From: Streptomyces coryli
Lineage (GTDB): Bacteria > Actinomycetota > Actinomycetes > Streptomycetales > Streptomycetaceae
Assembly: GCF_011044975.1 (NCBI RefSeq)
Contig: NZ_JAAKZV010000015.1
Location: forward strand, 1 to 64,000
Direction of reading: 5' to 3'
DNA length: 64,000 nucleotides
Below, piece by piece: positions 38,735 to 62,500 of this stretch (the first letter of the stretch is position 1; each line of letters begins with the position of its first letter). The notes under the pieces were generated by a model. It saw nothing but the letters and a program-made list of their open reading frames with translations. It was not told where the DNA came from and did no database searches. A program made the position numbers and the translations under genes.

Positions 38735-39484
38735 ATGGAGTGGTCCATCCAGGAGATCGCCCGCTCGGCCGGGACCACGAGCCGCACCCTGCGCCACTAC
38801 GGCGACCTGGGGCTGCTCGTGCCCAGCCGGGTGGCGGCGAACGGCTACCGCTATTACGACGAGCGGAGCCTGGTCCGGCTGCAGCAGATCCTGCTGCTGC
38901 GCGAGCTGGGCCTCGGCCTGCCCGCCATCGGCGACGTACTCGCCGGCGAGCAGGACGAGGCCCAGGCGCTCCGCAACCACCTCGAGCTCCTGCAGCAGGA
39001 GCGCCGGCGCCTCGGGCGCCAGATCGAGTCGGTGAAGACGACGCTGCGGAAGATCGAGGAAGGAGAGCAGCTGATGGCCGAGGAAGTTTTCGAGGGCTTC
39101 AACCACGCCCAGTACGAGGAGGAGGTCACCGAGCGCTGGGGCCGGGACGCCTGGGAGAAGGGTGACCGGTGGTGGAAGTCGCTGACCGAGGAGGACAAGA
39201 AGGCCTTCCGGAAGCAGCACGACGACATCGCCCGCGACTGGGGCGCCGCCCGTACCGCCGGCGAAGCCGCCGACGGCGAGGTGGCGCAGGCCATCGCGGC
39301 CCGGCAGGTGGCGTGGATGCAGTCGGGCGGGATGGTCGAGGTCACCCGTGAGTACGTCAGCTGCATCGGTGACCTGTTCGTGGGCGACCCGCGTTACGGC
39401 GAGAACTACGACAAGTACGCGGCCGGAACGTCCGGGCTGGTCCGGGACGCGCTGAAGGTCTATGCCGAGCGGAGCATGAGCTAG
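38735..39484 (+). CDS. TipA-like MerR-family transcriptional regulator with TipAS domain
   Basis: This 249-residue protein has an N-terminal MerR winged helix (about 2-72; EWSIQEIARSAGTTSRTLRHYG) and a coiled-coil dimerisation helix (about 78-118). The C-terminal drug-recognition domain matches TipAS/SkgA proteins (YEEEVTERWGRDAWEKGDRWW, VSCIGDLFVGDPRYG). TipAL binds thiopeptide antibiotics covalently and activates its own gene. A similar role in sensing amphipathic compounds is likely. ATG 38735 has GGAG 6 nt upstream, and an ATG at 38693 lies inside the promoter. Confidence 0.92.
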   Translation: MEWSIQEIARSAGTTSRTLRHYGDLGLLVPSRVAANGYRYYDERSLVRLQQILLLRELGLGLPAIGDVLAGEQDEAQALRNHLELLQQERRRLGRQIESVKTTLRKIEEGEQLMAEEVFEGFNHAQYEEEVTERWGRDAWEKGDRWWKSLTEEDKKAFRKQHDDIARDWGAARTAGEAADGEVAQAIAARQVAWMQSGGMVEVTREYVSCIGDLFVGDPRYGENYDKYAAGTSGLVRDALKVYAERSMS

Positions 39485-42794: not shown

Positions 42795-43291
42795 GTTCGG
42801 CGGGGCCGTCCTGCCGCGGCGTCTGAGGTGAAGGCGCGCGGTGGGACCCGCCGTTGTGCGCGGCCCGCTCCTCCGGGGTGCCGAGGCCGCGCTTGACCGT
42901 GTCGAGGATGGTCATGCCCTGGCCGACCAGCCCTGCCGCGATCTCGCCGAGGCCGTCGGCGCCGTTGAGGACGTTGACGTTCGCCCCGGACAGTCCGCCG
43001 CTGGCCTCCTTGACGATCTGCGGCAGCTGTTCGATCAGCATCCGGTCCAGCGCCACCCGGTCGTGCAGCGACGCCGCCTCCGCCTGCATCCGCATCCGGT
43101 CGGCCTCGGCCTGCGCTCGTCCGACCAGGCGAGAAAGTGCTCGGAGCCACCGCGGACCCGCACGGACACCTCCCCGGCACCCGCGGCTCCGCGCGTCCCG
43201 AGCGTCAGCACGCCCGTGCGACCGATCACGGCGTCGTCCGGGATCATCTCCCCGCCGCCCCCTCACGCCACTTGGCCCGTTCCTGCGACGT
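42787..43291 (-). pseudogene. remnant fusing an NfeD-like gene start to a flotillin gene end
   Basis: The downstream half (about 43115 to 42787) encodes RAQAEADRMRMQAEAASLHD through KRGLGTPEERAAH, a typical flotillin/SPFH C-terminus. The upstream half encodes TSQERAKWREGAAG, then in another frame MIPDDAVIGRTGVLTLGTRG through EHFLAWSDE. That looks like the start of an NfeD-like OB-fold protein, a usual flotillin neighbour. One G appears missing near 43248, and there is no start codon before TSQERAKW. A frame change at about 43115-43125 marks a deletion that removed the end of one gene and most of the other. Confidence 0.75.
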
Positions 43292-43373
43292 TAGCGGCGG
43301 GGTGGGGGCGGGGCACATGGGCTGGTCGGGTTTTGCTGCGTTCTTGACGTAACCGGCGTCGTGGGCCCGGTGC

Positions 43374-44015
43374 TCAGCCCGCCTGGCGATCGCGGCTGCG
43401 CAGTCTGTTCAGGAGGCCTGGGTTGCGGGGGGTGGGGCCGGTGGCGTTGACCCGTATTGCGGTGTCCAGTTCAGATGGGTCGTGTAGCAGGGGGGAGCAG
43501 CCGATGGCGTTGCCGGGGAGGATGAGGGCGTCGCAGGCGCGGGTGAGGAGCGCGTCGCCGGTGGGTTGTTCGAGGCCTGGGCCGGACTCGTTGCGGATGG
43601 TGGCCAGCTCTGCGGCTGCGTCCGGGCGGGACAGCAGGGTGGCGATGCGGCCTGCTCTGGATTCCCACTCGGCCAGCCGTGCGTGGCGTGCCTCCGGGTC
43701 GGGCGTGAGTGGCGGCTCCGCCGCCCACGACAGCGCCAGCGGTGGGCCGCCTCGCGCCGGTACCGCGCACAGCCGCGCTCGCAGGTCCGCGGAGAGCAGC
43801 AGTGCCACCGGGTCGCCCAGGCGGCGCGCGAGCGCCATCGCCGGGTGGAGCAGGGCGCGTTCTGCGACCGGGCCGCCTCCGCGGGCTGCCGGGGCGTCGA
43901 AGAGGACGCTCACGCCGCCGGGGCCCTCGAGTACGTAACCGCCGACCGGTCCGTCGGCGACGGCCGCCGTCACCGCCTCGACCCGCTCCCTGCACACCAC
44001 CGCGTAGGTCGCCAC
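43374..44015 (-). CDS. hypothetical soluble protein
   Basis: About 213 residues are encoded from GTG 44015 (MATYAVVCRERVEAVTAAV). An open frame continues to 44129 but its codons look non-coding. It is Ala/Arg-rich, has no membrane segment, and ends LLNRLRSRDRQAG. The segment ERALLHPAMALARRLGDPVALLLSADLRARL suggests helices. I recognise no family. It lies 181 bp downstream of the CHAT gene on the same strand, and whether it belongs to that operon is unclear. Confidence 0.55.
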   Translation of the reverse strand: MATYAVVCRERVEAVTAAVADGPVGGYVLEGPGGVSVLFDAPAARGGGPVAERALLHPAMALARRLGDPVALLLSADLRARLCAVPARGGPPLALSWAAEPPLTPDPEARHARLAEWESRAGRIATLLSRPDAAAELATIRNESGPGLEQPTGDALLTRACDALILPGNAIGCSPLLHDPSELDTAIRVNATGPTPRNPGLLNRLRSRDRQAG

Positions 44016-44196
44016 GCCGACGCCCGCCCCTCTGTCCTTGCCCGTCCCGCCGAATCGGCGCTCCACCTGCGCCTTTTCCTGAATCCTCGGCGCGGTTACG
44101 GGCGCCGGGCAAGGGGCGGTGTCCGGCAAATACCGGGATGGGCGGTCAAGGTTTGGTTACGCCGGAATGGTTGCCCCCGCGCCCCGGTGAAGTGCG

Positions 44197-47169
44197 TCAC
44201 CAGCCCTGGTGGGTGAATCCCGCCCAGCCGGCCAGGTCCTGCGCGCGGATGAGCCGCACCCGGTTCGCGAGGTGCGCCGGCATGTCCGGCGGGGGTCTGC
44301 GGTGCGGGTCGAGCATCCACAGCTGGGCCCGGCGCAGGGCCGCGGCCGGCGCGGCGGACTGCCTGCGGAGGTAGTGGTGGGCCATGTACATCAGCAGCGA
44401 CGTGGCCTCGTCCGGCACCGGCCACAGCGAGCCGAGCACCGTGCGGGCACCGGCGGCGAGGAACGCCGTGGCCAGGCTGTAGGCCTCGTCGTAGCCACGG
44501 CCCGAGACATTGCTCCAACAGGCGGCCAGGCAGACCAGATCGAGCCCGCCGCCCGGCCCGGCCGCCTCGGTCAGCTCCTCCGCCACCAGTCGGCTCCCGC
44601 CGGCCAGTTCCAGATACGCGCTGTGCCGACCGCCGGGGCGGACCACCCCGTGACAGGCCAGATGCACGGTCCCGGCCCGGCCGCCGCGCAGCCGCGCGAG
44701 CACCGCCGGGGCGGTGGCGTCGCGGGCGTCCAGGTGGACCCCGGCCGGGTAGAAGACGCGGTGAATGGCCTGCGCCTCTTCGCCCGCGTGCCGGAGGTCG
44801 CCGGTCGGGTTGCCGACGACGACGGCGGGCGTGGCCACTCCCGTCGCGCCGCCGGGTGCGGACCTGGCCGCGACCTCGCAGAGCATGCGGGCGGAGGGCA
44901 TATAGGAGATCTGCAGGTCCTGGAGGGCGTATCGGCGCCCGGCAGGGCCCGTCTCCGCGTACCGGCGTCCCACGGGGCCCGTCTCCGCGTCCCGCCAGGC
45001 CGCGTGCCACGGCACCACGCCGAGCTCCCCGACCGGCACGAGGACGACGGCAGGTTCGGCGGAGCCCCCGGAGCGGGTCAGTTCCTCGGCCACCGTCCCG
45101 AGCGCCGCCCGCCAGGCCCACCCGCACAGCCGGTCCAGCGCCGCTCCCGCCTCCGGGTGCGGCCGGCCCTGCGGGCCGCCGTGGACCGGATCGCCGTCGA
45201 CCGGGCCTGCCACCCGTGCGGCACGGGGCACCGGGCTGGGGCTCCCCACCTCCAGATACGCCGCCAGCTCCGGCGCGTCCAGCCGCAGCCGGGGCAGCTC
45301 CACGGCCCGTACCCCGCCGTCCGCCGTCACGATCACCGCCGCGCCCGGCGCGAACGCGTCCCGCTCCGGCCGCTCGCCTCCCGGCACCAGAAACACGAAG
45401 GCGTCCGCGCCGATCGCCCGCAGCGCGCCCGCCACCTCCCCGGTGGACGGGGCGCTGAGCAGCCGGTCGCGGTACGGCGAGGCCGCGAGCACATCGAGCA
45501 CCCGGCGGCGCAGCGGCACGTCGGGGCCGGTGCCCGTGCCCGTGCCGGCCCCAGTACCCATCGCCGCGCGCGGGTCGGCGAGCTCACCCTCAGGCGCCGG
45601 CGCCCCCGCCCGCCGCCACTCCTCCGCCAGCCCCTCCTGGCCCAGCTCCCGCAGCATGTCCGGGACAGTCGCCGCCACCCGCGCCGCATGCAGCACCAGC
45701 CCGCGACCGCTCTCCAACGCCTCGACCGCATCGCCCAGTTCACCGTCGGCAATGCACCAACGAGCCACGTCGAGGCAGCGGCCCATCGCCCGGTTCGCCG
45801 CCTGCGTCGCGTGCTCGGTGCCGGACTGCAGCAGCGCGGCCCAGGCGTACCCCGGCAGCGCGGCGAGGCCGAACTCCCGGGCCTCGGCCCGCATCCGGCG
45901 CGCGGCGGCCGCCCGTACCGGCGGAAACGCCTGCGCCCGGATGCGCAGCGCGTCCGCCAGGCCGGTGCCGATCATGGCCCAGTGCGGGTGGGCGGGGCCG
46001 CCGGCCGCCCGTACCACCCGGCGCAGGAGGTCGATGCCCTGGTCGAGGTGGGTGAGCACGTCCCGTCCTGCCCGGCCGACCGTGAGGAGCGGCCCGGCGT
46101 GCTGCTGCCGGACGATCTCGGCCCGCAGCAGGTGCGCGGCGGCAAGCGCGCTGGCGCACCTGATCCATTGGTCGCTGTCGTCGGGGCACTGCGGCAGCGC
46201 CTCGGCCAGCATGCCGATCGCCTCGTCGAGACCCGCCACGTCGCGGTCGAAGATGGCCTGCCCGGTGACCATATGGGCCGCCGCGATCAGGGCGTTGGGG
46301 CCGGAGCCCGGCGCCGGGCGGGCGACGGTGGCGCGTGGCCTCCCCTGCCGGGCGTCGGGCATCCGCCCCGTACGCTGGGCTACCAGCATCCGCAGCTTGT
46401 CGCGGTCGTTGGCCAGGCAGGCCTCGGCGCTGGACCGCTCCGGATAGTGCCGGGGCAGCCTGGCCAGCGCCGTCTGCTGCTCGCGGATGTGCCGGGCCAG
46501 CGCGTCCTCGTCCTTTCTGCGGTACGCGCCCTCGGCCCGCAGGGTGGCGACGTAGCAGCGGTAGTACAGCTCCTCGTCGGGCCGCAGCGCACCGCTCCCG
46601 CACACCTCGGCCAACTCGTCCGTCGCCCGCTCGAGTTCCGCCAGGCCGCCGTGCTGCTGCGCCTGCTCGGCGCGGGCCGCGGCGCGGATCAGGGCGATGC
46701 CCGTAGCGGCCGGATCGCCTCGCTCGGACAGCTCGGCGGCGGCGGTGCCGAGATTCTCCATGGCGTCGTCATTACGGGTCATCTCCTGCTGCCCCGACGC
46801 CCGGTCCGTCAGCCCCGCCAGGCCGTCCACCCCGCGTATCCGGGCCTGCCACACCGGGTCCTGATGCGCGAGCGCGGCCTGCACCAGCTCCCCCTGCTGC
46901 GTGGGTGTGCAGCACGGCCCGTGCAGCCGCATGAGGGGTACGAGCTGCAGCAGATAGCCGGCGTACAGCGCCCGTTCGGTGCCCGCCGCGGCCATGCCCC
47001 GCCAGTGCGCGTAATGCCCGTCGAAGGCGGCGACGGCATCCGCGGTGCCGGCGTGCTCCGCGATCAGCTCGGTCCACTGACGCGCGTATTCCTCGGTTAC
47101 GGCCGCCCGGGTGCCGAACTCCGCCTGGATGCGGCGCAGCAGGTCCTCGAGATCGCGGAGCTCGGCCAT
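44197..47169 (-). CDS. CHAT-domain peptidase with helical repeat N-terminus
   Basis: This 990-residue protein starts at ATG 47169 (MAELRDLEDLL), 4 bp after the caspase stop. The first 600 residues or so are helical and TPR-like (for example LRAEGAYRRKDEDALARHIR). The C-terminal CHAT domain (about 680-990) has the catalytic pair His840 in VHLACHGVV and Cys884 in LVCLAACWSN. CHAT proteases are caspase relatives; some act in gasdermin- or Craspase-type killing after a sensor activates them. It is the last gene of an operon with Hsp70, a J-like protein, GrpE and a caspase. A 10-residue unit ETGP[V/A]GRRYA is repeated in tandem. Confidence 0.9.
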   Translation of the reverse strand: MAELRDLEDLLRRIQAEFGTRAAVTEEYARQWTELIAEHAGTADAVAAFDGHYAHWRGMAAAGTERALYAGYLLQLVPLMRLHGPCCTPTQQGELVQAALAHQDPVWQARIRGVDGLAGLTDRASGQQEMTRNDDAMENLGTAAAELSERGDPAATGIALIRAAARAEQAQQHGGLAELERATDELAEVCGSGALRPDEELYYRCYVATLRAEGAYRRKDEDALARHIREQQTALARLPRHYPERSSAEACLANDRDKLRMLVAQRTGRMPDARQGRPRATVARPAPGSGPNALIAAAHMVTGQAIFDRDVAGLDEAIGMLAEALPQCPDDSDQWIRCASALAAAHLLRAEIVRQQHAGPLLTVGRAGRDVLTHLDQGIDLLRRVVRAAGGPAHPHWAMIGTGLADALRIRAQAFPPVRAAAARRMRAEAREFGLAALPGYAWAALLQSGTEHATQAANRAMGRCLDVARWCIADGELGDAVEALESGRGLVLHAARVAATVPDMLRELGQEGLAEEWRRAGAPAPEGELADPRAAMGTGAGTGTGTGPDVPLRRRVLDVLAASPYRDRLLSAPSTGEVAGALRAIGADAFVFLVPGGERPERDAFAPGAAVIVTADGGVRAVELPRLRLDAPELAAYLEVGSPSPVPRAARVAGPVDGDPVHGGPQGRPHPEAGAALDRLCGWAWRAALGTVAEELTRSGGSAEPAVVLVPVGELGVVPWHAAWRDAETGPVGRRYAETGPAGRRYALQDLQISYMPSARMLCEVAARSAPGGATGVATPAVVVGNPTGDLRHAGEEAQAIHRVFYPAGVHLDARDATAPAVLARLRGGRAGTVHLACHGVVRPGGRHSAYLELAGGSRLVAEELTEAAGPGGGLDLVCLAACWSNVSGRGYDEAYSLATAFLAAGARTVLGSLWPVPDEATSLLMYMAHHYLRRQSAAPAAALRRAQLWMLDPHRRPPPDMPAHLANRVRLIRAQDLAGWAGFTHQGW
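44927..44986 (-). repeat. 30 bp in-frame tandem duplication inside the CHAT gene
   Basis: Two copies (44927-44956 and 44957-44986) differ at six positions and encode two 10-residue units, ETGPVGRRYA and ETGPAGRRYA, in a probable surface loop. Confidence 0.8.
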
Positions 47170-47173
47170 CCGG

Positions 47174-49090
47174 CTACCCGGGCACCACGGTGCGCACCTG
47201 GACGGTGTGCGTCGCCCACTGCCCCGGCCCGCCGGCCGGGACCGGCCCCGCGACCCGGCTGCCGTGCGCCGGCGGTTCGAGGCGCAGCACCCCGTCGGGG
47301 CGTTCCCCGGCCGCCGCCCGGCTGAGCGCGGCCGCCGGATCCCACGGGTCGAGGTGGAACGGGACGGTGTTGAGCTCGCCCTCGGCCACGATGACCTTGA
47401 GCCAGTCCACCGTGGCGGCCCCCGGCACCGGCGGACGGCGCTCGGGCAGCGACAGCTGCACCTCGGCCCCGTCCAGCGCATGGCCTACGTGCCCGGCGCC
47501 GACGAAGTCGCCGGTGAACAGGCCCGTATGGCAGCCGTATTCATCGGTCAGATCGAGCAGCACGCACCACAGCCGACGGCCGGGCGCGGCCCCCTCGTGC
47601 CGAAGCCGGATGGAGACCCTGGGCGCCACCGGCCCCCGCGGCCCGTACTCGTACCGGCGCACGATCTCGCCGCTGCCGTCCGGCACCAGCGGAGGGCCGT
47701 CCTTCCCGGCCGCGACCTCGACGCGCACCCGCCCGCGCAGCGGCGAGAAGGCGGGCGCGTCGAGGTCCCGCAACTGATGCCAGCGGGCGAGATGGACAAG
47801 GCAGGCCGCGACGCGGTGGACTGCGTCGGGGTCCGCGAGCGGCAGCGGGGCGACGAAGGCGGAGCCGTCGCGGCGCAGCACGTGGGCCGCGCCCTGGTGC
47901 ACCTCCACCCGGAACCAGAGGTCGCCGGCGTGCTCGGCTCCTTCCACGAGCCGGAGCAGCGGTGACGGCCCGCCGCCCGGGCCTGCCTCCCCCAGCGCCC
48001 CGGCCAGCGCCCGCTCGATCGCGGGCTGCCCCGGCGCCGCCAGCGTGACGGAAGCCGGCGGCAGCTCCAGCGCGGACAGCGCGACCGGGTACACCTCACC
48101 GGGCTCGGGCCGCCAGTCCGCGGGCGCGACCAGGGTCCGTTCCGGCTCCACCGCCTTCGCCCGCACCACCTGCCCCCGCGCCGCCGGCCCGGTCACCGTG
48201 AACTCGGTCCCCGCCTCCTCCGCTACGAGCCCGTGCCCGCTGCCGCAGTCGACCTCCCAGCCGTCCCGGCCGTCCCGCAGCAGGTGCGGGCTCGGCGTCC
48301 GGGTGCCGAGGCCGCCGAGGAACGGCTGGTCGGCTAGGCCGCCGGGGTCCACCGGTGAGAGGACCGGGTGCTGCCTCGCGTTCCACTTCTGCACCTGGGC
48401 GTTGAGGGCCGCGTGCAGCTCCCGGTAGGTCACGCTCGGGCCGTACGCGGTGAGCCGGTCGACCAGCGCGCGGGTGAACAGCCCGTGGTAGCGCCCGTCG
48501 AAGGAGCCCTCGCACGAGGGCTGGTCGAGCCTGCTGCCGGCGAGCAGCACATGCCGGCCAGGCCCGTCCGGCAGCAGCGCCGCGCGCCCGGCGAACCGCT
48601 GCCATCCCGGGTCCGGCGGCGTGAACCTGGCCGTGAGGTGCGGGCCGCCGCGGGTGGCGCCGCCGGAGAAGCAGGAGTCGAGCACGGCGGCGGTGTGGGC
48701 GCCGCCGGCGGCCACCTGGTTCAGCAGCGCGCCGAGCCGCTTGTCGACGAGCGGCCGCCCGTCGGCGCAGACCAGCGCCTGCATCCGGCCGGTGGCCTCG
48801 ATGCGGAGGTACGCGGGGTCGGTGACCTCGAAGTCGCTGCCGTGGCCCGCGTACCAGAACAGCGCCGTGTCGTCGGCGCCCGCCCGGCCCAGGTGGCCGC
48901 GGATGCCGTCCTCGACCGACTCCGGGGTGGCGTCGGCGTCCAGCAGCTCCCGGACGGCGAGCCGCCCGCCGAGCCGGCCGGTCAGCAGGGTGCGGACCGC
49001 CGCGATGTCGTTACGGCAGCCCTTGAGCGACTCGAAGCGGCCGGGCGGGTAGGCGTTGATGCCGACCAGCAGCGCGTAGACGGTCCCCAT
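47174..49090 (-). CDS. caspase-family (peptidase C14) protein
   Basis: The protein has 638 residues. The N-terminal caspase/metacaspase domain (1-260) starts MGTVYALLVGINAYPPGRFE and has the catalytic dyad His83 (FWYAGHGSDF) and Cys140 (VLDSCFSGG). The rest is beta-rich and unfamiliar, with an LLDLTDEYGCHTGLF segment, and may bind a ligand or substrate. It has no signal peptide or membrane segment. The start is 16 bp after the GrpE-like gene, and the stop is 4 bp before the CHAT gene. Metacaspase-like proteases prefer Arg/Lys sites in many bacteria; specificity here is unknown. Confidence 0.93.
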   Translation of the reverse strand: MGTVYALLVGINAYPPGRFESLKGCRNDIAAVRTLLTGRLGGRLAVRELLDADATPESVEDGIRGHLGRAGADDTALFWYAGHGSDFEVTDPAYLRIEATGRMQALVCADGRPLVDKRLGALLNQVAAGGAHTAAVLDSCFSGGATRGGPHLTARFTPPDPGWQRFAGRAALLPDGPGRHVLLAGSRLDQPSCEGSFDGRYHGLFTRALVDRLTAYGPSVTYRELHAALNAQVQKWNARQHPVLSPVDPGGLADQPFLGGLGTRTPSPHLLRDGRDGWEVDCGSGHGLVAEEAGTEFTVTGPAARGQVVRAKAVEPERTLVAPADWRPEPGEVYPVALSALELPPASVTLAAPGQPAIERALAGALGEAGPGGGPSPLLRLVEGAEHAGDLWFRVEVHQGAAHVLRRDGSAFVAPLPLADPDAVHRVAACLVHLARWHQLRDLDAPAFSPLRGRVRVEVAAGKDGPPLVPDGSGEIVRRYEYGPRGPVAPRVSIRLRHEGAAPGRRLWCVLLDLTDEYGCHTGLFTGDFVGAGHVGHALDGAEVQLSLPERRPPVPGAATVDWLKVIVAEGELNTVPFHLDPWDPAAALSRAAAGERPDGVLRLEPPAHGSRVAGPVPAGGPGQWATHTVQVRTVVPG

Positions 49091-49106
49091 GCGATACGGG
49101 CCGGCC

Positions 49107-49688
49107 CTACTGCGCGGTGTAGACGCGGACCTGCTGGGGGCGGACGATGCGCTCGCCGATCCGGTAGCCGTGCCGGACCAGCTCGGCGACCTCGCCGTTC
49201 TGCTCAGGGGCGAGCGCGGCGAGCGCGCCCACGGCCTCCTGCACGGCGGGGTCGAACGGGCCCCGGGTCACGGGGATGCGCTGCATCCCGTACTTCTCCA
49301 TGATCACGAGCAGCTCGGCGGCCACCGAGTCGGCGAACCCGTCCTCCTGGCCGGGGTGCCGGTCCACCCGGTCCAGGAGCAGGACGAGGTCGTAGAGCAG
49401 CGGCTGCAGGGTGCGGCCTTCGGCGTCCTTGCGGGCGTGGTCGAGTTCGCCGTGCAGCTCGTCCAGGCTGCGGCGGGCCTCGCGGTCGTTGAGCAGCCGG
49501 CGGCGGAACTGGTCGTTCAGCGTGGCCAGTTCCTCGCGCATGCCGTCCACGGCGTCGGCGACGATCCCGAACGGGTCGGGCCCCTGCTCCGGAGCGGGCG
49601 CGGGCGGCGGGACCGGCGCCGGCTCCGGATCGAGCGCCAGCCGGGGGTCCTGCTCGGGCGGCGTGGCGGATGCGGGCGAGGCGGTCAT
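49107..49688 (-). CDS. GrpE-like nucleotide exchange factor
   Basis: This 193-residue protein has a Pro/Ala-rich N-terminus and then a long coiled coil (about 45-100; ELATLNDQFRRRLLNDREAR). The beta-wing domain carries the GrpE signature VTRGPFDPAVQEAVG and ELVRHGYRIGERIVRPQQVRVY. It should release ADP from the Hsp70 of the same operon. It is a paralogue; the housekeeping grpE is expected elsewhere with dnaK-dnaJ. Its ATG overlaps the stop of the J-like/TPR gene (ATGA). Confidence 0.9.
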   Translation of the reverse strand: MTASPASATPPEQDPRLALDPEPAPVPPPAPAPEQGPDPFGIVADAVDGMREELATLNDQFRRRLLNDREARRSLDELHGELDHARKDAEGRTLQPLLYDLVLLLDRVDRHPGQEDGFADSVAAELLVIMEKYGMQRIPVTRGPFDPAVQEAVGALAALAPEQNGEVAELVRHGYRIGERIVRPQQVRVYTAQ

Positions 49689-50833
49689 CGGACCCTCCCT
49701 TGGGGCAGCGGCGGCCTGGTGTGCACCGGCAGGTCGTTGTACGTGTGCCGCCACCGCGGCTTGATGCCCATGGCGACGGGCAGGCCGAAGAAGGCGAAGA
49801 GGGCCAGGGTGCTGAGCAGGTTGGGCAGCGTCAGCATGAGGACGAAGCACACCGCCATCACCCCGGCCATGCTCTTGCGCCAGCGCCAGGTCTTGGACTG
49901 CGCCGCGAGGGCGGTCGCGCGGTACCGGGTCAGCTTGCTGATCAGCTCGCCGTCCGCGACCCCCACCGCCAGGGCCTGGTCCACGCAGTGGATGACGTGC
50001 TTGGCGCTTTCGGCGGAAGGGATGACGAAGCGCTGGTGGAACGGGTGCAGGGTCATGGCACCCTCGGCCCGCAGCGCCCAGATGCGGCCCACCTGGTCCT
50101 TGACGACGGAGTCGTCGGGCCGGCCGATCAGGGCCTGCTCGTAGTTCTGCAGCGCCTCGTCGTAACGCTGGGCCAGATAGAGGCTGTTGGCGGCCCCGAG
50201 CCTGGCGTCGAAGTCGGCGGGAGCGAGCTCGACGGCCTTCAGCGCCCAGTCGGCTGCCGCCGAATGCTGGCCGGTCTGCGCGCACACCTGCGCGATGAGG
50301 GTGTGGGTGAGCGCGTCGCCCGGGTGCAGCGCGAGGGCCCGCTGCAGCTCCTGCAGCGCGTCGCCGTGCTGGCCCTGGTTGCTGTGGATGACGCCGAGCA
50401 GTCGCCAGGCGTCGGCGTCGCGGTCGTTGTGGTGGACCGCCTGCCGGAGCTCGTAGACGGCGCCCGCCTCGTCGTTCACCTCCAGCAGCGCACGGGCCTG
50501 GGCCACCCAGTCCCGACCGCTCTGGGTGGGCTCGGGACGGGGCGCGGCCTTCGGCGTCGCGGTCTTACGGGGCTGCTGCCGGGGCTGCTTGGCCTGCGCC
50601 AGCCGGCGGTCGTACGCGCCCCGCTTCGCCCGGTCGAGCAGCTCCTTGCGCGCCTCCCCGACCAGCGCCACCTTGTCCTCGGCCACCCGCCGCTTCGCGG
50701 CGTCGGGTGCCCGGCTGGCACGGCTGGACCAGGTGCGGAAGGCCGCGTCGAGCAGCCTGGGGAGCTGGTCCTGGGCGGCGGCGGGGTCGATCTCGAGTTC
50801 CGCGTAGTAGTCGGGCACGTCGTCGGTCGTCAT
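49685..50833 (-). CDS. J-like domain/TPR protein with C-terminal membrane anchor
   Basis: This 382-residue protein begins with a degenerate J domain (about 7-78): PDYYAELEIDPAAAQDQL opens it and AKRGAYDRRL closes it, as in DnaJ. The HPD tripeptide needed to fire Hsp70 ATPase is replaced by residues around Trp35-Ser36-Ser37. A linker rich in Pro/Lys/Gln follows, then about three to four TPR units (107-241), and two hydrophobic segments at about 320-357 that should anchor it to the membrane. Together with the neighbouring Hsp70 and GrpE it resembles a private, membrane-located chaperone machine. Confidence 0.85.
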   Translation of the reverse strand: MTTDDVPDYYAELEIDPAAAQDQLPRLLDAAFRTWSSRASRAPDAAKRRVAEDKVALVGEARKELLDRAKRGAYDRRLAQAKQPRQQPRKTATPKAAPRPEPTQSGRDWVAQARALLEVNDEAGAVYELRQAVHHNDRDADAWRLLGVIHSNQGQHGDALQELQRALALHPGDALTHTLIAQVCAQTGQHSAAADWALKAVELAPADFDARLGAANSLYLAQRYDEALQNYEQALIGRPDDSVVKDQVGRIWALRAEGAMTLHPFHQRFVIPSAESAKHVIHCVDQALAVGVADGELISKLTRYRATALAAQSKTWRWRKSMAGVMAVCFVLMLTLPNLLSTLALFAFFGLPVAMGIKPRWRHTYNDLPVHTRPPLPQGRVR

Positions 50834-50854
50834 GGTGAACGGCGCTCCCGGAGG

Positions 50855-52459
50855 CTAAAGGGTCGCCGCGCGGGCGACGCGATCGGTGGCCTCGGCCATC
50901 TCCTCCGCGCCCAGGTTGTCCGGCCGCTCGAGCTCGAACTCCCCGATCCACTTGCCGGTGGTGCCGTCCTTGAGCTCGACGTGGATGATGCCGTCCACGT
51001 CGTACGAGTAGGTGACCTCGAAGGGTGCGCCGGCCTTCGGGTACTGCGGGATGTCGAGGGTGCTCTCACCGACGACCTTGACGTAGTCCAGGTCCTCGTC
51101 GTGGCCCTCGGTGACCTGCACCCGCAGCCTCGACTGCATGTCGTCGAGGGTGTAGAAGGTCTCGCTCTTCTTGGCCGGGACCGACGTGTTGTGCGGAATG
51201 ATCACGGAGTTGTACTGGTCGTTGCGGTTCGTCTCGCGGGTGGTGACCATGCCGAGCGACTGGGATGTGACGTCCTTGATGGACTTCACCTTGCCCTTGG
51301 TGAGCCGGGCCAGACCGTCGCCGGGCGCGGACTCGGTGCTCGCGCCGCTGCCCACGTACTTCTTCTTCTCCTCCGCGTCCTCCTTCCGCACCGCCGCGTC
51401 CAGCGCGACCAGCGCGGCGCCGAGGGCGACCACCTCGTCCTGGCTGATGCCGCGCTCCGGCTCCTTGTCCGAGAGCCGCTCGATCAGCGCCTGGACCATG
51501 GGCATCCGGGTGGAGCCGCCGACGAGCAGCACCTTGTCGATGCCGCTCCAGTCGAGCCGCGCCTCCTGCAGCACGCCCTCGGTGATGATGCGGGTGCGGT
51601 CCAGCAGCTCGGCCGAGATCTCCTCGAACTTCTCCCGGGTCACCCGGATCTGCTCGTGCTTGCCGCCGGCGGAGAGCATCACGACGGCCTGCGGGGCGTT
51701 GGAGAGGGTGCGCTTGGCGATTTCCGCCTTGTCGCGCAGCTCGGCCTGCAGCGCGCTGTCCTCGTTGAGATCGGGGCCGCCGGCGGCCATGAAGGCGTCG
51801 TTGAGGAAGTTCATCAGCGCGCCGTCCCAGTCGAAGCCGCCGAGATTGCGGTCGCCGTCGGTCGCGGTCACCTCGTAGTCGCCGTCCACGACGCGCATCA
51901 CGGTGACGTCGAAGGTGCCGCCGCCCAGGTCGTAGACGAGCACCGTGCCGATCTCGGTGCCGCTCTCGCCGTCGGACTCGGCGATGCCGTAGGCGAGCGC
52001 GGCGGCGGTGGGCTCGTTGACGATCCGCAGCACCTCGAGGCCTGCCAGCTTGCCGGCGTCCTGGGTGGCCCGGCGGCGGACGTCGTCGAAGTACGCGGGC
52101 ACGGTGATGACCGCCTGCTCGACCGGCTCGCCGAGCATCATCTCGGCGTCCTCCTTGAGCCGCTTGAGCAGCAGCCCGGAGATCTCCTCCGGCCGGTACG
52201 CGGTGCCGGACTCCGACTGGTACACCGGGTTGGTCTCGCCCATGTACCGCTTGACGAACTGCACCACGTCGTCGGGTGCGGTGACCGCCGACCGCTTCGC
52301 CTGCGATCCGACGACGACGGTCTCGCCCTGGAACATCACCACGGAAGGGGTGATGTTCTCGCCCTCGCGGTTGCGGACGATGGACGGGCTGCCCGACCTG
52401 TCGGCGACCGCCACCGCGGAGTACGTCGTACCCAGGTCGATACCCACCACGCGCGTCAC
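50855..52459 (-). CDS. Hsp70-family chaperone lacking the helical lid
   Basis: This 534-residue Hsp70 starts at GTG 52459 ([20 protein letters not shown]), with GAGGGGGAG just upstream. ATPase-domain motifs are intact: phosphate 1 [10 protein letters not shown], the segment [13 protein letters not shown], phosphate 2 [11 protein letters not shown], and adenosine [11 protein letters not shown]. The linker (about 360-398) is altered, without the DnaK VLLLDV sequence. The substrate-binding beta domain (about 398-512) is followed by only some 20 residues, so the alpha-helical lid is missing. It heads the five-gene operon. The 102 bp upstream contains the promoter; I saw no CIRCE or HAIR box. Confidence 0.92.
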
Positions 52460-52561
52460 TTGACTCCCCCTCACCTTCCGGCCGACAAGCTAATCAAACC
52501 AGCAACGGGCAGCACATGGCGCCAAGTTGATTCACAACCGGCCGAAAGGCGTCAAGCGAGC

Positions 52562-53146
52562 TCAGGCGGCCAGCACCGACAGCACCGACTTCACCGCGAC
52601 CGGGCCCGCCTCCGCCTTCCGCAGCCGCCCGGCGGTCCGCTCCGCCGCCGCGCCGTGCAGGATGTAATGCACCACGCTGACCAGCCAGACCGTGGGCAGG
52701 TCGGTACGGAACGCGCCTTCCTCGCGGCCGCGTTCGATCAGCTCCTCGACGCGCTTCGCGGGGCCCTCGTGCAGCTCGCGCAGCCGTCCCGCCGGGAGCA
52801 CGCCCTGGGCCGCGTCCAGCAGCGCCCCGGACTCGGCGACCAGCTCCCAGCTCGACTCCAGCAGCCGCTCCATGACGGTCCGCGCGTCCCCCTCCAGGTC
52901 GACGGCGGCGAGCGGCTCCTCCGCCGCCCGCAGGGCGTCGACCATCGCGGCCTCGACCAGCTCGGCGCGGGTGCGGAAGTGCCCGTAGAGCGTCATCCGG
53001 CCCACGCCCGCGGCCTTGGCGATGTCGTCGGTGGTGGCGTTCGGGTCGGCGGCGAGGCGGGCGCGGGCCGCGGCCAGGATGCGGGCGATGCTGCGCTCGG
53101 CGTCGGCGCGGCGGGCACGGGGGCGGGCGGTCGTCATGCCGCCCAT
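52562..53146 (-). CDS. TetR-family repressor
   Basis: This 194-residue regulator has an N-terminal HTH (about 15-62; TTDDIAKAAGVGRMTLYGHF) and a helical ligand-binding domain. It is divergent from a DHA2 drug exporter (53239). The shared region holds two copies of CTCGTAC-N6-GTACGAG, so it very likely represses both genes until a drug binds. The start may be ATG 53146 or ATG 53137 (MTTARPR). Neither has a ribosome-binding site, and the first would be almost leaderless. Confidence 0.92.
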   Translation of the reverse strand: MGGMTTARPRARRADAERSIARILAAARARLAADPNATTDDIAKAAGVGRMTLYGHFRTRAELVEAAMVDALRAAEEPLAAVDLEGDARTVMERLLESSWELVAESGALLDAAQGVLPAGRLRELHEGPAKRVEELIERGREEGAFRTDLPTVWLVSVVHYILHGAAAERTAGRLRKAEAGPVAVKSVLSVLAA

Positions 53147-53159
53147 CGTAACTCGCTAT

Positions 53160-53217
53160 CTCGTACGGGAATGTACGAGCTATGCTCCCGGTTAGAACTC
53201 GTACATCTACGTACGAG
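53160..53217. promoter_or_regulatory. twin TetR-type operators between repressor and exporter
   Basis: CTCGTAC-N6-GTACGAG occurs at 53160-53179 and again at 53198-53217, with 7 bp perfect arms and different 6 bp spacers. The centres are 38 bp apart. They flank the space between the divergent TetR and exporter genes and overlap where both promoters must be. Confidence 0.9.
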
Positions 53218-53238
53218 ATAAGGGGACGGGAGACTCCG

Positions 53239-54627
53239 ATGTCGACGCAGTCACAGCACCAAGAAGGCCCCAAGCAGGCGGCCTTGAACCCTGCGCGCTG
53301 GCGCATTCTCGGCTTCCTCGGGATCGCCCAGCTCATGCTGATCCTCGACGTCACCGTCGTGGCCATCGCGCTGCCGCACATGGGCGCCGACCTCGGCATC
53401 GGCCGCGAGGCGCTGACCTGGACGGTGAGCGCGTACACCCTCACCTTCGGCGGCCTGATGCTGCTCGGCGGCCGGATCGTGGACCTGATCGGCGCCAAAC
53501 GGGTCGTCCTGACCGGGCTGTTGCTCTTCACCGCGGCCTCGCTGGTGACCGGGCTCGCCGACTCGGCGGCGCTGCTGCTCGGCGGCCGGGTGGCACAGGG
53601 CGTCGGCGCGGCGCTGCTCTCACCCGCCGCGCTGTCGCTGGTGATCACGCTCTTCGACGGCGAGGAGCGCAACAAGGCGCTCGGCATCTGGTCCGCCCTC
53701 GGCGGCGGCGGCGCGGCGCTCGGCGTGCTGCTGGGCGGGGCACTCACCGCGGGTCCCGGCTGGCCGTGGGTGTTCTACGTCAACGTGCCCATCGGCCTGG
53801 TCATCGCGGCCGCCCTGACCAAGCTGCTCCCGAAGCAGCTCCCGCCGACGAACCGCCCGCGCCTCGACCTCCTGGGCGCGCTGCTGGTGACGGCCTCGTC
53901 CGCCGCCCTCATCTACGCGCTGATCGCCGCGGGCGAGGACGGCTGGCTCACCGCGACCACCGGGTGGCTGGTGCTCCTGTCCGTCGTCGGGTACACGCTC
54001 TTCGCGACCTGGCAGCGCAAGGCGCGGTCGCCGCTGATGGACGTGCGGCTGCTGGTCCGGCGGCCGGTGGCGACCGGCGCGTTCCTCATCCTCATCGCCA
54101 CGGCGCTGCTGATCGCGATCTTCTTCCTGGGCACGTTCTACTTCCAGCACAGCGAGGATTACGGCGCGCTGCGCACCGGGCTGCTGTTCCTCCCGGTGGC
54201 GCTCGCCACCATGCTCGGCGCCAACCTGACCGGCCGCGTCCTGGGCCGCTTCGGCGGCCGCCCGCTCGCGGTGGCGGGGCTGCTGATCGCGGCGGCCGGG
54301 CTGGCCGCGCCGGCCTTCGAACTGCACCCGGCCACGGTGGTCGCGGGCGTGGCGCTGACCGGCGCCGGGACCGGCGTCATCTTCGTCGTCGCCTCGGCGA
54401 CGGCGCTGGGCCAGGTCGCCCCGCACGAGTCGGGCATCGCGTCCGGCATCGTCTCCACCTTCCACGAGCTGGGCGCCTCGCTCGGCGCGCCGGTCGTCTC
54501 CAGCGTCGCGGCGGCGAGCCTGGTCGGCCCGACCCTGACCGGTTTCACCGACGGCTTCACGGTCGCGGCGATCGCCGCGGCGGTGGCGGCGGTCATCGCG
54601 GGGGTGCTGACGCCGGGCAAGCACTGA
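53239..54627 (+). CDS. DHA2-family (EmrB/QacA) multidrug exporter
   Basis: This 462-residue MFS transporter has about 14 membrane segments. It starts with a cytoplasmic tail and helix 1 containing LMLILDVTVVAIALPHMGADL, the DHA2 motif D1. LLGGRIVDLIGAKRV is motif A. The ATG at 53239 has GGGAG 6 nt upstream. It probably expels hydrophobic drugs by proton antiport. The divergent TetR gene and the twin operators imply drug-induced expression. It is followed by a strong terminator. Confidence 0.93.
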   Translation: MSTQSQHQEGPKQAALNPARWRILGFLGIAQLMLILDVTVVAIALPHMGADLGIGREALTWTVSAYTLTFGGLMLLGGRIVDLIGAKRVVLTGLLLFTAASLVTGLADSAALLLGGRVAQGVGAALLSPAALSLVITLFDGEERNKALGIWSALGGGGAALGVLLGGALTAGPGWPWVFYVNVPIGLVIAAALTKLLPKQLPPTNRPRLDLLGALLVTASSAALIYALIAAGEDGWLTATTGWLVLLSVVGYTLFATWQRKARSPLMDVRLLVRRPVATGAFLILIATALLIAIFFLGTFYFQHSEDYGALRTGLLFLPVALATMLGANLTGRVLGRFGGRPLAVAGLLIAAAGLAAPAFELHPATVVAGVALTGAGTGVIFVVASATALGQVAPHESGIASGIVSTFHELGASLGAPVVSSVAAASLVGPTLTGFTDGFTVAAIAAAVAAVIAGVLTPGKH

Positions 54628-59390: not shown

Positions 59391-60743
59391 TTACTCCTCG
59401 TCGAGCAGCTCCTCCGCCGCCCGCGAGGCCGCCCGCCCGGCCGCCGCGCCCAGCGCCTGGGCCGACCCGTTCGACGCCGCGGGCAGCTCCGTCATCCGCG
59501 GCAGCAGCTGCGCGGCGAGCAGCGTCGGCAGCGCCGAGGTGTCGCCGCCGGAGGCGTCCGTACGGACCACCACCGGCTGCGGCGCCCGCGTCGCCAGCTC
59601 GGCGCCGACGTCCAGCCGCCGCCGAGCGAGCTCGTACTGGAGCACCGCCCGGTTGTCGCGGTACGCCTGGGCGAGCCGGCGCTGCGCCTTCGCCTCGTTC
59701 TCCGCCGAGATCAGGCCGCTGCGGCCCCGGGTCTCGATCTCGAAGCGGACCTTCTGCGCCTCGGTCTCCTGCTCCTCCAGCAGCCGGGCGACCTCCTCGC
59801 GGGCCCGGTTCAGCGCCGCCTTGACCTCGACGAAGCGGGCGTCGCGGGCCTTCTTCGCGCGCTCGATGTCCATCTGCAGGTTGTCGATGCGGCGCTTGCG
59901 GGTGAGGCCCCACTCCTGCTCGTACGCGACCCGCTCCTTGGCGACCCGCTCACGGGTGGCCAGGTGCTGCTGGTACTGCATGGGCAGCTGCACGTCCGGG
60001 ATGTTGGAGCCGGTGATGCGTACGCCGTAGCGGTCCAGCTGCCGGTTGAGCAGCTCCTGCATGTCGGCGACATCCGAGCCGCGCAGGTCGTACGCCCGCT
60101 CGGTGCGCACCTTGCGGGCGCGCTGCCGGATGGCGTCCTGGACGGCGCTGGAGAGCACCAGGTCGAAGTTGCCTGCGCCGATGGTGCGGACGAAGCGGAC
60201 CGCGTCGGTGATCCGGAACTTCAGGAAGAACTCGATCGACCGCAGCGGCACGTTCTCCTGCGTCGGGCAGGCCATCACCGGCGCCGAATACGGGATTTCG
60301 GTGGCGACGTCGACCACGAAGTCGACCCGCGACCACGGGTGCCAGATGAAGTGCCGGCCGGCGTCGAGGGTGCGGGAGACGGCGCCGTACTTCGTCAGCA
60401 CCCCGTTCGTGCCCTGCTCGATCTTGACGATCGACGAGCGCCACCACCACAGCACGCCGATCAGCAGCAGCAGGGCGCCGATCACATAGCCGAGGACGGA
60501 CAGCGTGTCGTACGCGATGTCCGAGCCGCCGTCGGACTCCTTCAGCCCGGACATCACCCCGCTCGCCAGCGCGAGCACGCCGAGCCACAGCGGCAGCATC
60601 CACCACAGCCGGCGGCGGTGCCGCGGGATGATCACCGGGATCAGCATGCCCGCCTCGCCGCCGCGCAGCAGCTGCTGGATGTCGCTCCAGGGCGCGATCT
60701 TCTCCGAGATGACGGACCTGCGCATACGTCCTGCCGCGCTCAT
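59391..60743 (-). CDS. SPFH/band 7 membrane protein, second of a pair
   Basis: The protein has 450 residues. Two hydrophobic segments lie at about 46-66 and 80-100, then an SPFH domain (about 105-270; IVKIEQGTNGVLTKYGAVSRTL). A coiled coil follows (about 280-390; KKARDARFVEVKAALNRAREE) and an Ala-rich tail ending in EELLDEE. Such proteins build membrane scaffolds that organise microdomains or hold proteases. The ATG overlaps the stop of the other SPFH gene (ATGA), so the two are likely made in fixed ratio and may co-assemble. Confidence 0.87.
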   Translation of the reverse strand: MSAAGRMRRSVISEKIAPWSDIQQLLRGGEAGMLIPVIIPRHRRRLWWMLPLWLGVLALASGVMSGLKESDGGSDIAYDTLSVLGYVIGALLLLIGVLWWWRSSIVKIEQGTNGVLTKYGAVSRTLDAGRHFIWHPWSRVDFVVDVATEIPYSAPVMACPTQENVPLRSIEFFLKFRITDAVRFVRTIGAGNFDLVLSSAVQDAIRQRARKVRTERAYDLRGSDVADMQELLNRQLDRYGVRITGSNIPDVQLPMQYQQHLATRERVAKERVAYEQEWGLTRKRRIDNLQMDIERAKKARDARFVEVKAALNRAREEVARLLEEQETEAQKVRFEIETRGRSGLISAENEAKAQRRLAQAYRDNRAVLQYELARRRLDVGAELATRAPQPVVVRTDASGGDTSALPTLLAAQLLPRMTELPAASNGSAQALGAAAGRAASRAAEELLDEE

Positions 60744-62374
60744 GCGCCGGCCTCCTCGTTCAGCTCGTCGCCCTCATCGCCTTCGTCGCCCGCCGTCTTC
60801 ACCGGCACGGTGACCCGCTCCGCCTCGCGCAGCGTCTCGATCTCCGGCTGCCGTTCGGCGATCCGCTCGGCGACCTCGTTCAGCCGCGACCGCATGGTCT
60901 CCAGGTCGCCGGCGCTGAACAGCTCATCGCCGCGCTCGCCGACCAGCTCGCGGGCGATGGCCAGGAAGTCCACCCCGGCCTCCTCGCCGGCCCCGCCGGA
61001 GCCGCCGATCCGCACCATCCGCGGCAGGTGGTCGGCGATCTCCTCGAGGGTGTCCAGGATCTGCTGCTGGTAGCGGTATTCGAGGATCTCCGGCGCCTCG
61101 GCCGCGGTCATCGCGCGGATGTCCAGGGCCTGCGCGTCCAGCAGCGCCGCGTTCGCCTTCGCCTCCGACTCGGCCTGTACGTACCGCTGCCGGGCCAGCG
61201 CGTGCGCCCGGTTGGTCTCGCGCTCCACGGCGGTGTCCATCTGCGCCTGGTACTGGGCGATGTCGGCCTGGATGGAGGAGAGCGTCTCCTGGCGGGTGGC
61301 GAGCTCCTTGCTCAGGTCGCCCTCGTCCTGCTCCTTGCGGAGGTTGAGCGCGTATTCGTGGGTGTACGCCTCCTTCGCCATCCGCACCATCTCCGGGGCC
61401 GCGAGGTCCATGCGGTAGCCCTGGTCGGAGGGTTCGGCGGAGGTGATGTTGGCGTTGGTGAGCTCGACCGCGGGCCGGAACTGGGCGTTGAGCTGCTCCA
61501 TCAGCCGGCCGGTGTCCTCGCCGACCATGTCGTAGATCCCGGCGGCTTCCTGCTCGTAGATCAGGGAGCGGATGGTCTCGCTGACCGCGTTGCTCAGCTT
61601 CTCCTCGAAGCCGCGGACCGCGCCCAGGGTGTAGACGAACTCCACCGGGTCGCTGATCCGGAACTGCAGGAACAGGTCGATGGAGGCCTTCACCCCGCCC
61701 TTCGTCGGCGCCTCGCGCACGGGCGCGTTGAAGGGGTATTCGCGGGTGGTGTTGATGATGTACGAGACCCGCTTGAAGGGGTTGATGAGGATGACCCGGC
61801 CGGGCTCCTTCACCTGCTCCAGCTTGCCGAAGCGGGTGATCAGCGCGTGGCAGCCGTCCGGCACCATCACCATGCCCTGCCGCCACCACACGAAGCAGAC
61901 GGCGAGCACCGCGAGCACCCAGTAGTGGATGCCGAAGAGCGGGTTGGTGAGCACGTCGCCGCCGGCCGCGGACACCGCGATGGTGCCGGCCACGCCGATC
62001 ACGAGCAGCAACGACACCGGCAGCATGCTCAGGAAGGAGCGGCCCTTCGGCATCACCATCGGGCAGATGGCGTGCACCTTCTTGCCGTCCTCGCGGACCT
62101 GCTCGCTGCGGTTGAGCGCCTCGCCGGCCTCGTCGAGGGGCACCGACTTCTGCACCATGACCGTGTCGGTGCTGCCGCCCTGCTCGCGGGCGGCCGGGAA
62201 ATCGGCCGGGTCGATGCCGCCTTCCTGCAGCACCTCGCGGCCCCGCTCGACCTGGCCGCCGAAGGCTTCCGCGGTCTGCTCGCGCAGCTGCTGCTGCGCC
62301 ACCTCCCGCGGATTCGCTCCGCCGGCCACCGCGCGTGCGGCATTGCGTACGTTCTGCGCTCTGGATCGCGCCAT
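60740..62374 (-). CDS. SPFH/band 7 membrane protein, first of a pair
   Basis: The protein has 544 residues. A hydrophilic N-terminal region (about 1-105) with QQQLREQTAEAFGGQVERGR comes first. Two membrane segments follow at about 112-132 and 143-163, then an SPFH domain (about 165-320; GMVMVPDGCHALITRFGKLEQVKEPGRVILINP). A coiled coil (about 340-430) leads to an acidic tail (GDEGDEGDELNEEAGA). GGGGGAG precedes the ATG. It shares architecture with the downstream gene but is clearly diverged, so the duplication is old. Confidence 0.87.
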   Translation of the reverse strand: MARSRAQNVRNAARAVAGGANPREVAQQQLREQTAEAFGGQVERGREVLQEGGIDPADFPAAREQGGSTDTVMVQKSVPLDEAGEALNRSEQVREDGKKVHAICPMVMPKGRSFLSMLPVSLLLVIGVAGTIAVSAAGGDVLTNPLFGIHYWVLAVLAVCFVWWRQGMVMVPDGCHALITRFGKLEQVKEPGRVILINPFKRVSYIINTTREYPFNAPVREAPTKGGVKASIDLFLQFRISDPVEFVYTLGAVRGFEEKLSNAVSETIRSLIYEQEAAGIYDMVGEDTGRLMEQLNAQFRPAVELTNANITSAEPSDQGYRMDLAAPEMVRMAKEAYTHEYALNLRKEQDEGDLSKELATRQETLSSIQADIAQYQAQMDTAVERETNRAHALARQRYVQAESEAKANAALLDAQALDIRAMTAAEAPEILEYRYQQQILDTLEEIADHLPRMVRIGGSGGAGEEAGVDFLAIARELVGERGDELFSAGDLETMRSRLNEVAERIAERQPEIETLREAERVTVPVKTAGDEGDEGDELNEEAGA

Positions 62375-62447
62375 CTCACTCCCCCGGGGTCGTGCCGTAT
62401 CTCGGAATGCACAGCATTCAAGCAGTCACGAACCCGGCAGTCTGCGA

Positions 62448-62489
62448 CCGCACCCGGCAGTACCCGTCCGGGGAGATTGCCGGGTGCGG
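62448..62489. terminator. 12 bp inverted repeat between DUF2254 and SPFH genes
   Basis: Perfect arms CCGCACCCGGCA (62448-62459) and TGCCGGGTGCGG (62478-62489) enclose an 18 nt loop, starting 12 bp beyond the DUF2254 gene stop on the minus strand. Confidence 0.7.
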
Positions 62490-62500
62490 GCAGCGGCGGG

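Follow-up and report, generated by a model that had tools for sequence, protein, structure and literature searches.

The 64,000-nucleotide stretch of Streptomyces coryli analysed here (contig NZ_JAAKZV010000015.1, positions 1 to 64,000; this whole stretch is the window referred to below) raises the question of why an Hsp70, a J-like/TPR membrane protein and a GrpE-family nucleotide exchange factor are encoded in one unit with a caspase-fold peptidase and a CHAT peptidase. The answer that we favour, tentatively and at somewhat less than even confidence, is that the unit encodes a membrane-tethered Hsp70 switch which would set the threshold at which a caspase/CHAT effector pair acts in signalling against invaders or for cell death. 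The five genes occupy positions 44197-52459, all on the minus strand, with the transcription order Hsp70, J-like/TPR protein, GrpE, caspase and CHAT peptidase; together with the leader they are as follows.

50855-52459, minus strand: Hsp70, 534 amino acids (aa), GTG start; ATPase domain and beta substrate-binding domain, without the alpha-helical lid
49685-50833, minus strand: J-like/TPR membrane protein, 382 aa; J-like hairpin without HPD motif at about residues 1-85, TPR at about 106-258, hydrophobic region within about 321-358
49107-49688, minus strand: GrpE-family nucleotide exchange factor, 193 aa; Pfam GrpE
47174-49090, minus strand: caspase-fold peptidase (Peptidase_C14), 638 aa; His83/Cys140; conserved C-terminal part
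44197-47169, minus strand: CHAT peptidase, 990 aa, ATG start; CHAT domain at residues 680-989, His840/Cys884
52460-52561, minus strand: leader of 102 base pairs (bp), from the upstream TetR-family gene to the Hsp70 start, with GAGGGGGAG before the GTG start

Layout and proteins of the operon

The tight packing of five minus-strand genes, noticed in a preliminary description of this DNA, is confirmed with the same coordinates, and the co-directional genes, separated in order by 21, -4, 16 and 4 bp, support the view that they form an operon. GC at third codon positions is 0.92-0.97 in all five genes, as real coding genes would show at such a GC content; all five reading frames are intact. An alternative frame of 1094 aa at the CHAT gene is unlikely to be the protein, since the alignment with the relative from Streptomyces clavuligerus begins at residue 1 of the 990-aa protein. 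The GTG start of the Hsp70 gene is preceded by the stretch GAGGGGGAG, which resembles a ribosome-binding site.

By gene content all three parts of an Hsp70 cycle are present, as had been proposed, but a standard cycle they are not, with HPD motif and lid missing. The Hsp70 (Pfam HSP70, 438.5 bits, cut-off 20.6) retains the ATPase signatures in an alignment with three DnaKs (frames of 626, 635 and 639 aa), and its ATPase domain is intact in this comparison. The protein ends directly after the beta part of the substrate-binding domain, where the three DnaKs extend further, and the alpha-helical lid of the canonical DnaK machine is missing. The inter-domain linker is altered (KSIK versus VLLL or IVLL in the DnaKs) and is followed by DVTSQSLG, compared with DVTSQALG in the Hsp70 of a related trio on a Rhodococcus plasmid (see below) and DVTPL(S/N)LG in the DnaKs. 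The operon Hsp70 stays under the cut-off of every NCBIfam DnaK model listed, with 436.3 bits where one model asks for 648 and 418.2 where TIGR02350 asks for 822.55, in keeping with an Hsp70 module of non-housekeeping type.

The second protein passes the cut-offs of several Pfam TPR families and reaches 16.5 bits for Pfam DnaJ, under the cut-off of 27.8; the label J-like is justified by the same region of its Rhodococcus relative, which passes with 35.2 bits. The operon J-like domain has no HPD motif, and the relative reads HPN. Hydropathy places a transmembrane-like hydrophobic region inside residues 321-358 or thereabouts. A single-sequence structure model with a mean pLDDT (predicted local distance difference test) of 75.6, of low to moderate confidence in its N-terminal part (43-73 per ten-residue block), predicts helices at residues 3-13, 17-41 and 44-82 that would form a hairpin with almost no loop at the expected place of HPD; a TPR array comes next, and after it a long helix (295-349) which would overlap the hydrophobic region in part. 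Most of the 50 matches that Foldseek listed for the model are to TPR proteins (designed TPRs, OGT, PEX5, MamA and APC/C subunits). The third protein is recognized by Pfam GrpE with 48.9 bits (cut-off 25.8). Standard J-stimulated ATP hydrolysis between the operon Hsp70 and the J-like protein is, we infer, unlikely, and a housekeeping DnaJ could still act on this Hsp70. Given the lidless Hsp70 and the HPD-less J-like domain, this first module, a dedicated pair of Hsp70 and GrpE together with a J-like/TPR scaffold tethered to the membrane, would probably be a nucleotide-gated sensor or assembly platform and not a folding machine.

Both proteases possess the complete His/Cys dyads that had been ascribed to them. 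The caspase (Pfam Peptidase_C14, 58.3 bits, cut-off 21.4) carries His83/Cys140, kept in all three caspases aligned, and the CHAT protein (Pfam CHAT, PF12770, 163.8 bits, cut-off 24) carries His840/Cys884, kept in both CHAT proteins of an alignment that left out the Embleya CHAT. The caspase aligns over its full length with relatives from S. clavuligerus and Embleya; its C-terminal part of about 380 residues, which aligns across all three, has no Pfam family, and a model of residues 262-638 is unusable (mean pLDDT 35.9). Residues 1-680 of the CHAT protein likewise have no Pfam family. In comparison with solved structures, the caspase gives weak matches to GSU0716 and metacaspases, and the CHAT core weak matches to CHAT domain proteins, among them 8d9f and 7x8a, which we take to be Csx29.

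Relatives of the two modules

The chaperone trio was met twice, in the operon and on a plasmid of Rhodococcus pseudokoreensis, the two proteases recur as neighbours, and all five genes together were found in this operon only; the relatives of trio and pair come mostly from plasmids, the main collection searched. On the Rhodococcus plasmid, Hsp70, TPR/J-like and GrpE genes follow one another in the same order as in the operon, with gaps of 46 and -4 bp, and their products are 52%, 26% and 33% identical to the operon proteins respectively. Among 72,556 plasmid records, two match the J-like/TPR protein, and this plasmid alone does so over 80% or more of its length; the Rhodococcus trio Hsp70 is also the best plasmid match of the operon Hsp70 (47.3% in the plasmid search, the next being 42.8% and lower); among the best 25 of 268 matching records, those below it are dnaK wherever named. 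Downstream of the Rhodococcus trio lies, overlapping, the gene for a 930-aa FtsK/SpoIIIE-type ATPase, and no protease. Genes for TnsA-like, integrase, TniB and TniQ proteins end about 4 kilobases (kb) upstream of this trio (L003 1-15989), which is possible mobile cargo.

The proteases, in turn, are convergent neighbours on an S. clavuligerus plasmid (caspase 41% and CHAT 44% identical, the latter over its full length), whose 706,856-base record has no Hsp70 match; at least 15 further records of this species with the same identities are counted as one case. On an Embleya plasmid the pair (caspase 39%, CHAT 33% identical over residues 195-989) is also convergent, and the Hsp70 matches lie more than 1 megabase away. 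As caspase and CHAT are thus also neighbours without chaperones, they probably constitute a separate effector unit, which would be the second module of the operon. Beside the S. clavuligerus pair, a gene for a RES-domain NAD+ phosphorylase (L001 14863-15567, minus strand) lies 38 bp upstream of the CHAT gene and is co-directional with it. A plasmid of Deinococcus aetherius (L004 2578-11525) has a same-strand run of a C1 peptidase, a hypothetical protein, a protease inhibitor I42, a caspase, a hypothetical protein and a second caspase.

These loci bear on the idea of a dedicated maturation chaperone, by which the trio would merely fold or assemble the large caspase and CHAT proteins or insert a membrane complex and would not be a sensor. 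The chaperone genes standing first in the operon and the size of the CHAT protein (990 aa) are in keeping with it, but S. clavuligerus and Embleya encode the pair with no chaperone close by, and the Rhodococcus trio exists without the pair; we consider this role rather unlikely.

Among 398 Pseudomonadota genomes, at least 73 have a caspase-domain match and at least 112 a CHAT match. A CHAT domain lies within 5 kb at no fewer than five of the 108 listed caspase places (G058, G083, G226, G018 and G168; G226 was placed from its fetched neighbourhood, the other four from the two match lists), where chance would give 0.6-0.8 by a rough hand estimate from about 2.5 CHAT genes per 4.5-megabase genome. 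Neighbourhoods of 12-19.5 kb around 20 of the 108 places contain a CHAT match in four cases, about 0.8 to 9 kb away, and an Hsp70, GrpE or J-like-domain match in none. At two Pseudomonadota loci (L114 and L115) caspase and CHAT domains are close and convergent, as in S. clavuligerus and Embleya, and the convergent caspase-CHAT pair may be a system in its own right, and a widespread one. The profile of the J-like/TPR protein matches 345 of the 398 genomes, among the matches listed nearly always via TPR stretches, and is uninformative. Six exact peptide patterns of the caspase, run against 84,980 species genomes, gave 30 pattern matches with a single weak relative (Dyella), hence no near-identical caspase in these genomes, a result that says nothing on the absence of the operon.

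A phage or viral origin of the operon was rejected on empty searches. Among 50,697 phage records neither the J-like/TPR protein nor the caspase has a match, and the CHAT and J-like alignments found no relative in viral contigs; none of the 36 viral-contig loci with an Hsp70 match contains a match to caspase or CHAT, a short J-domain match was seen at one of them (L017), and six loci with weak caspase-domain matches contain no CHAT, Hsp70 or GrpE match.

The preliminary description had proposed the conservation of the five-gene order as a check. In the plasmids, Pseudomonadota genomes and viral contigs searched, with actinobacterial chromosomes outside the systematic search, the order was not recovered, and trio and pair occur apart, which is in part the outcome named in that description as refuting; the order may yet be conserved elsewhere. 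That both modules occur separately and the full order was seen once would also suit a chance fusion of two mobile modules, with shared transcription as the only functional link. Yet the 16 bp across the module border and the 4 bp inside the pair suggest a single transcript, and the five reading frames are intact; such a fusion appears highly improbable.

Surroundings of the operon and the proposed switch

A composition-based and crude gene caller gave 27 genes in 27650-63793 of the window and missed at least one, at 43374-44015. Pfam searches with the called genes and this additional one returned transporters, regulators, cytochrome b, SPFH proteins and similar families, with no match to GTPase, GAP1 or mobile-element families among the genes scanned and none to the FNIII domain among those called; from the part left of 27650, the scans took in a single called gene. 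The gene at 43374-44015 (minus strand, 213 aa, 181 bp past CHAT), which has no Pfam family and no plasmid match, was left out as a sixth operon member and was outside the PADLOC scan of the neighbours. PADLOC matched the operon proteins with a caspase model (71.1 bits) and with weak BovA and JetA models only, and recognized among them no antiphage system with several specific components. In 20 neighbouring proteins, from about 13 kb to the left to 11 kb to the right, it found one match, mad1; accordingly, the defence-island context put forward as a further check is not borne out, there being no sign of an island among these neighbours. The protein matched, a TipAS/MerR regulator with an antibiotic-recognition domain (38735-39484, plus strand), is covered by mad1 in its N-terminal 50 residues only.

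Heat-shock regulation of the operon was rejected: CIRCE and HAIR sites were not seen by eye in the 102-bp leader, and a sigma-70 scan of 43000-53300 gave no promoter-like site. The lone terminator-like site in the same interval (44057-44073, plus strand) was not used, as one was found against a shuffle mean of 1.3. Two CTCGTAC-N6-GTACGAG inverted repeats (53160-53217, 38 bp apart) lie between the TetR-family gene (52562-53146) and a divergent MFS gene and are, from their sequence, likely an operator pair; TetR control of the MFS gene thus appears likelier than control of the operon, and the TetR gene is not favoured as operon regulator. Further away, at 59391-63793 on the minus strand, two SPFH/band 7 genes adjoin each other, with a gene for a DUF2254 membrane protein upstream on the same strand.

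Ordinary genes, not defence genes, as scanned neighbours would be in line with protein quality control, in which a membrane-associated Hsp70 triage passes damaged proteins to the two proteases in stress or mycelial development, with no anti-invader role. The combination of chaperone and protease is also a usual layout of quality control. Caspase-fold and CHAT peptidases, on the other hand, are generally specific cutters and not bulk degraders, Pfam finds no AAA+ unfoldase in the operon, and relatives of trio and pair were found on plasmids, though plasmids were the main collection searched; overall, a quality-control role is unlikely.

For the Hsp70 switch that we favour, the physical coupling, the direction of control, the trigger, the targets and the outcome that we infer would be these. 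The chaperone module would most likely set the threshold for the proteases, the trigger being the client load on Hsp70 and the J-like/TPR protein at the membrane, for example by invader proteins that are made in bulk or aggregate. The scaffold with the lidless Hsp70 and GrpE would read the folding load or a particular client and, via the nucleotide state, a complex would change by which the protease pair is restrained or assembled; one of the proteases would then act on its partner, or on a target or substrate common to both, and the cell would be arrested or killed. Support comes from the co-directional genes standing only -4 to 21 bp apart, from the same-order trio with a different downstream gene in Rhodococcus, from caspase-CHAT neighbours without nearby Hsp70 on the S. 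clavuligerus and Embleya plasmids and at five of the 108 Pseudomonadota places, and from the kept dyads together with the missing lid and HPD motif. By analogy, it is also suggested by the conflict systems described by Kaur (2020; PMC7159879) and by the antiphage protein bNACHT25 (PMC12169576). The immune or cell-death role that had been proposed from the outset is plausible by these parallels.

Several points weigh against such a switch. The five-gene order was seen only once, in this operon, and not again in the plasmids, 398 Pseudomonadota genomes and viral contigs searched, the protease pair occurs without chaperones, and the sole trio relative found is without a protease. CHAT matches are lacking in 16 of the 20 Pseudomonadota caspase neighbourhoods, and the plasmid caspases of Deinococcus (31%) and Nostoc (28%) have no CHAT, Hsp70, J-like or GrpE match within 8 kb. 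No known defence gene was recognized by PADLOC among the 20 neighbours, the operon encodes neither a recognized pore-former nor a recognized substrate for cleavage, and every coupling of chaperones to proteases is read from gene order.

A wider claim, which we regard as doubtful, is that the operon represents a stand-alone class of immune or cell-death switches in which a lidless Hsp70, an HPD-less membrane J-like/TPR protein and their own GrpE would sense 'proteome disturbance' in general and the output modules would be exchangeable, caspase-CHAT here and an FtsK-like ATPase in Rhodococcus. Should the coupling prove real, the operon would give bacteria a built-in connection between the client load of Hsp70 and caspase-like proteases, a bacterial analogue of chaperone control over cell-death proteases, and bacterial sensing of phage-caused proteome disturbance would become directly testable in one operon. 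The modularity, the same trio with another output, would also provide a new search handle for conflict systems as yet unknown, namely lidless Hsp70 with HPD-less J-like/TPR protein and GrpE.

Comparison with known systems

In agreement with the preliminary description, which knew of no experimental account of the five-gene set, no description was found in open-licence full-text literature, a scope outside which subscription papers and most preprints fall. Among published systems, the HSP70/GrpE theme of the GAP1-N2 GTPase conflict systems comes closest: HSP70 and GrpE are found in about 14% of the GAP1-N2 neighbourhoods, and the FNIII proteins in these neighbourhoods, mainly of actinobacteria and firmicutes, are typically fused to DnaJ or TPR (PMC7159879). 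The operon resembles this theme in its HSP70 and GrpE genes, its J-domain or TPR partner and the predicted conflict role, but a linked GTPase or GAP1 and an FNIII-DnaJ/TPR protein were not found in the genes scanned, the linked genes are caspase and CHAT, and the J-like domain is HPD-less. It could thus be a reduced branch of the theme, with the GTPase and GAP1 genes lost or located elsewhere and the proteases as effectors, for which the frequency of HSP70, GrpE and FNIII-DnaJ/TPR proteins in GAP1-N2 neighbourhoods speaks. The lack of a GTPase, GAP1 or FNIII match among the genes called in 27650-63793 argues otherwise, as does the main text of PMC7159879, which contains no word starting with CHAT, and we hold this origin to be quite improbable.

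The two-gene EACC1-caspase systems (PMC7159879; NF047832) share the N-terminal caspase domain, and, as conflict units prevalent in actinobacteria with a membrane component, they are counted as similar to the operon; the operon caspase, however, reaches 60.4 bits against a cut-off of 140, and the gene 5' of it is GrpE, not EACC1. Csx29, the TPR-CHAT protein of type III-E CRISPR systems, also has a C-terminal CHAT protease, which in Craspase is reported to be controlled by its partner complex, whereas the operon CHAT reaches 22.5 bits against a cut-off of 300 (NF041237), with a match to residues 835-923 only, and no Cas7-11 gene is among the families found around the operon.

With the housekeeping DnaK-DnaJ-GrpE machine the operon has the same three gene families and the ATPase signatures of Hsp70 in common, but it differs in the lidless Hsp70, the HPD-less membrane J-like/TPR protein and the divergent GrpE, and its proteins are under the NCBIfam cut-offs listed. 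The likeness to bNACHT25 is solely one of working principle, an antiphage executioner activated in dependence on Hsp70/J machinery: bNACHT25 requires DnaJ of the host, and its defence is disrupted by mutations that interfere with the interaction of DnaJ and DnaK (PMC12169576). While bNACHT25 is a NACHT protein that uses a host chaperone, the operon encodes a chaperone together with proteases. Predicted conflict systems with HSP70, GrpE and J/TPR partners are already known, as are caspase-type and CHAT proteases in bacterial defence; undescribed within the literature searched are the five-gene combination, the lidless and HPD-less chaperone and the proposed exchangeable output.

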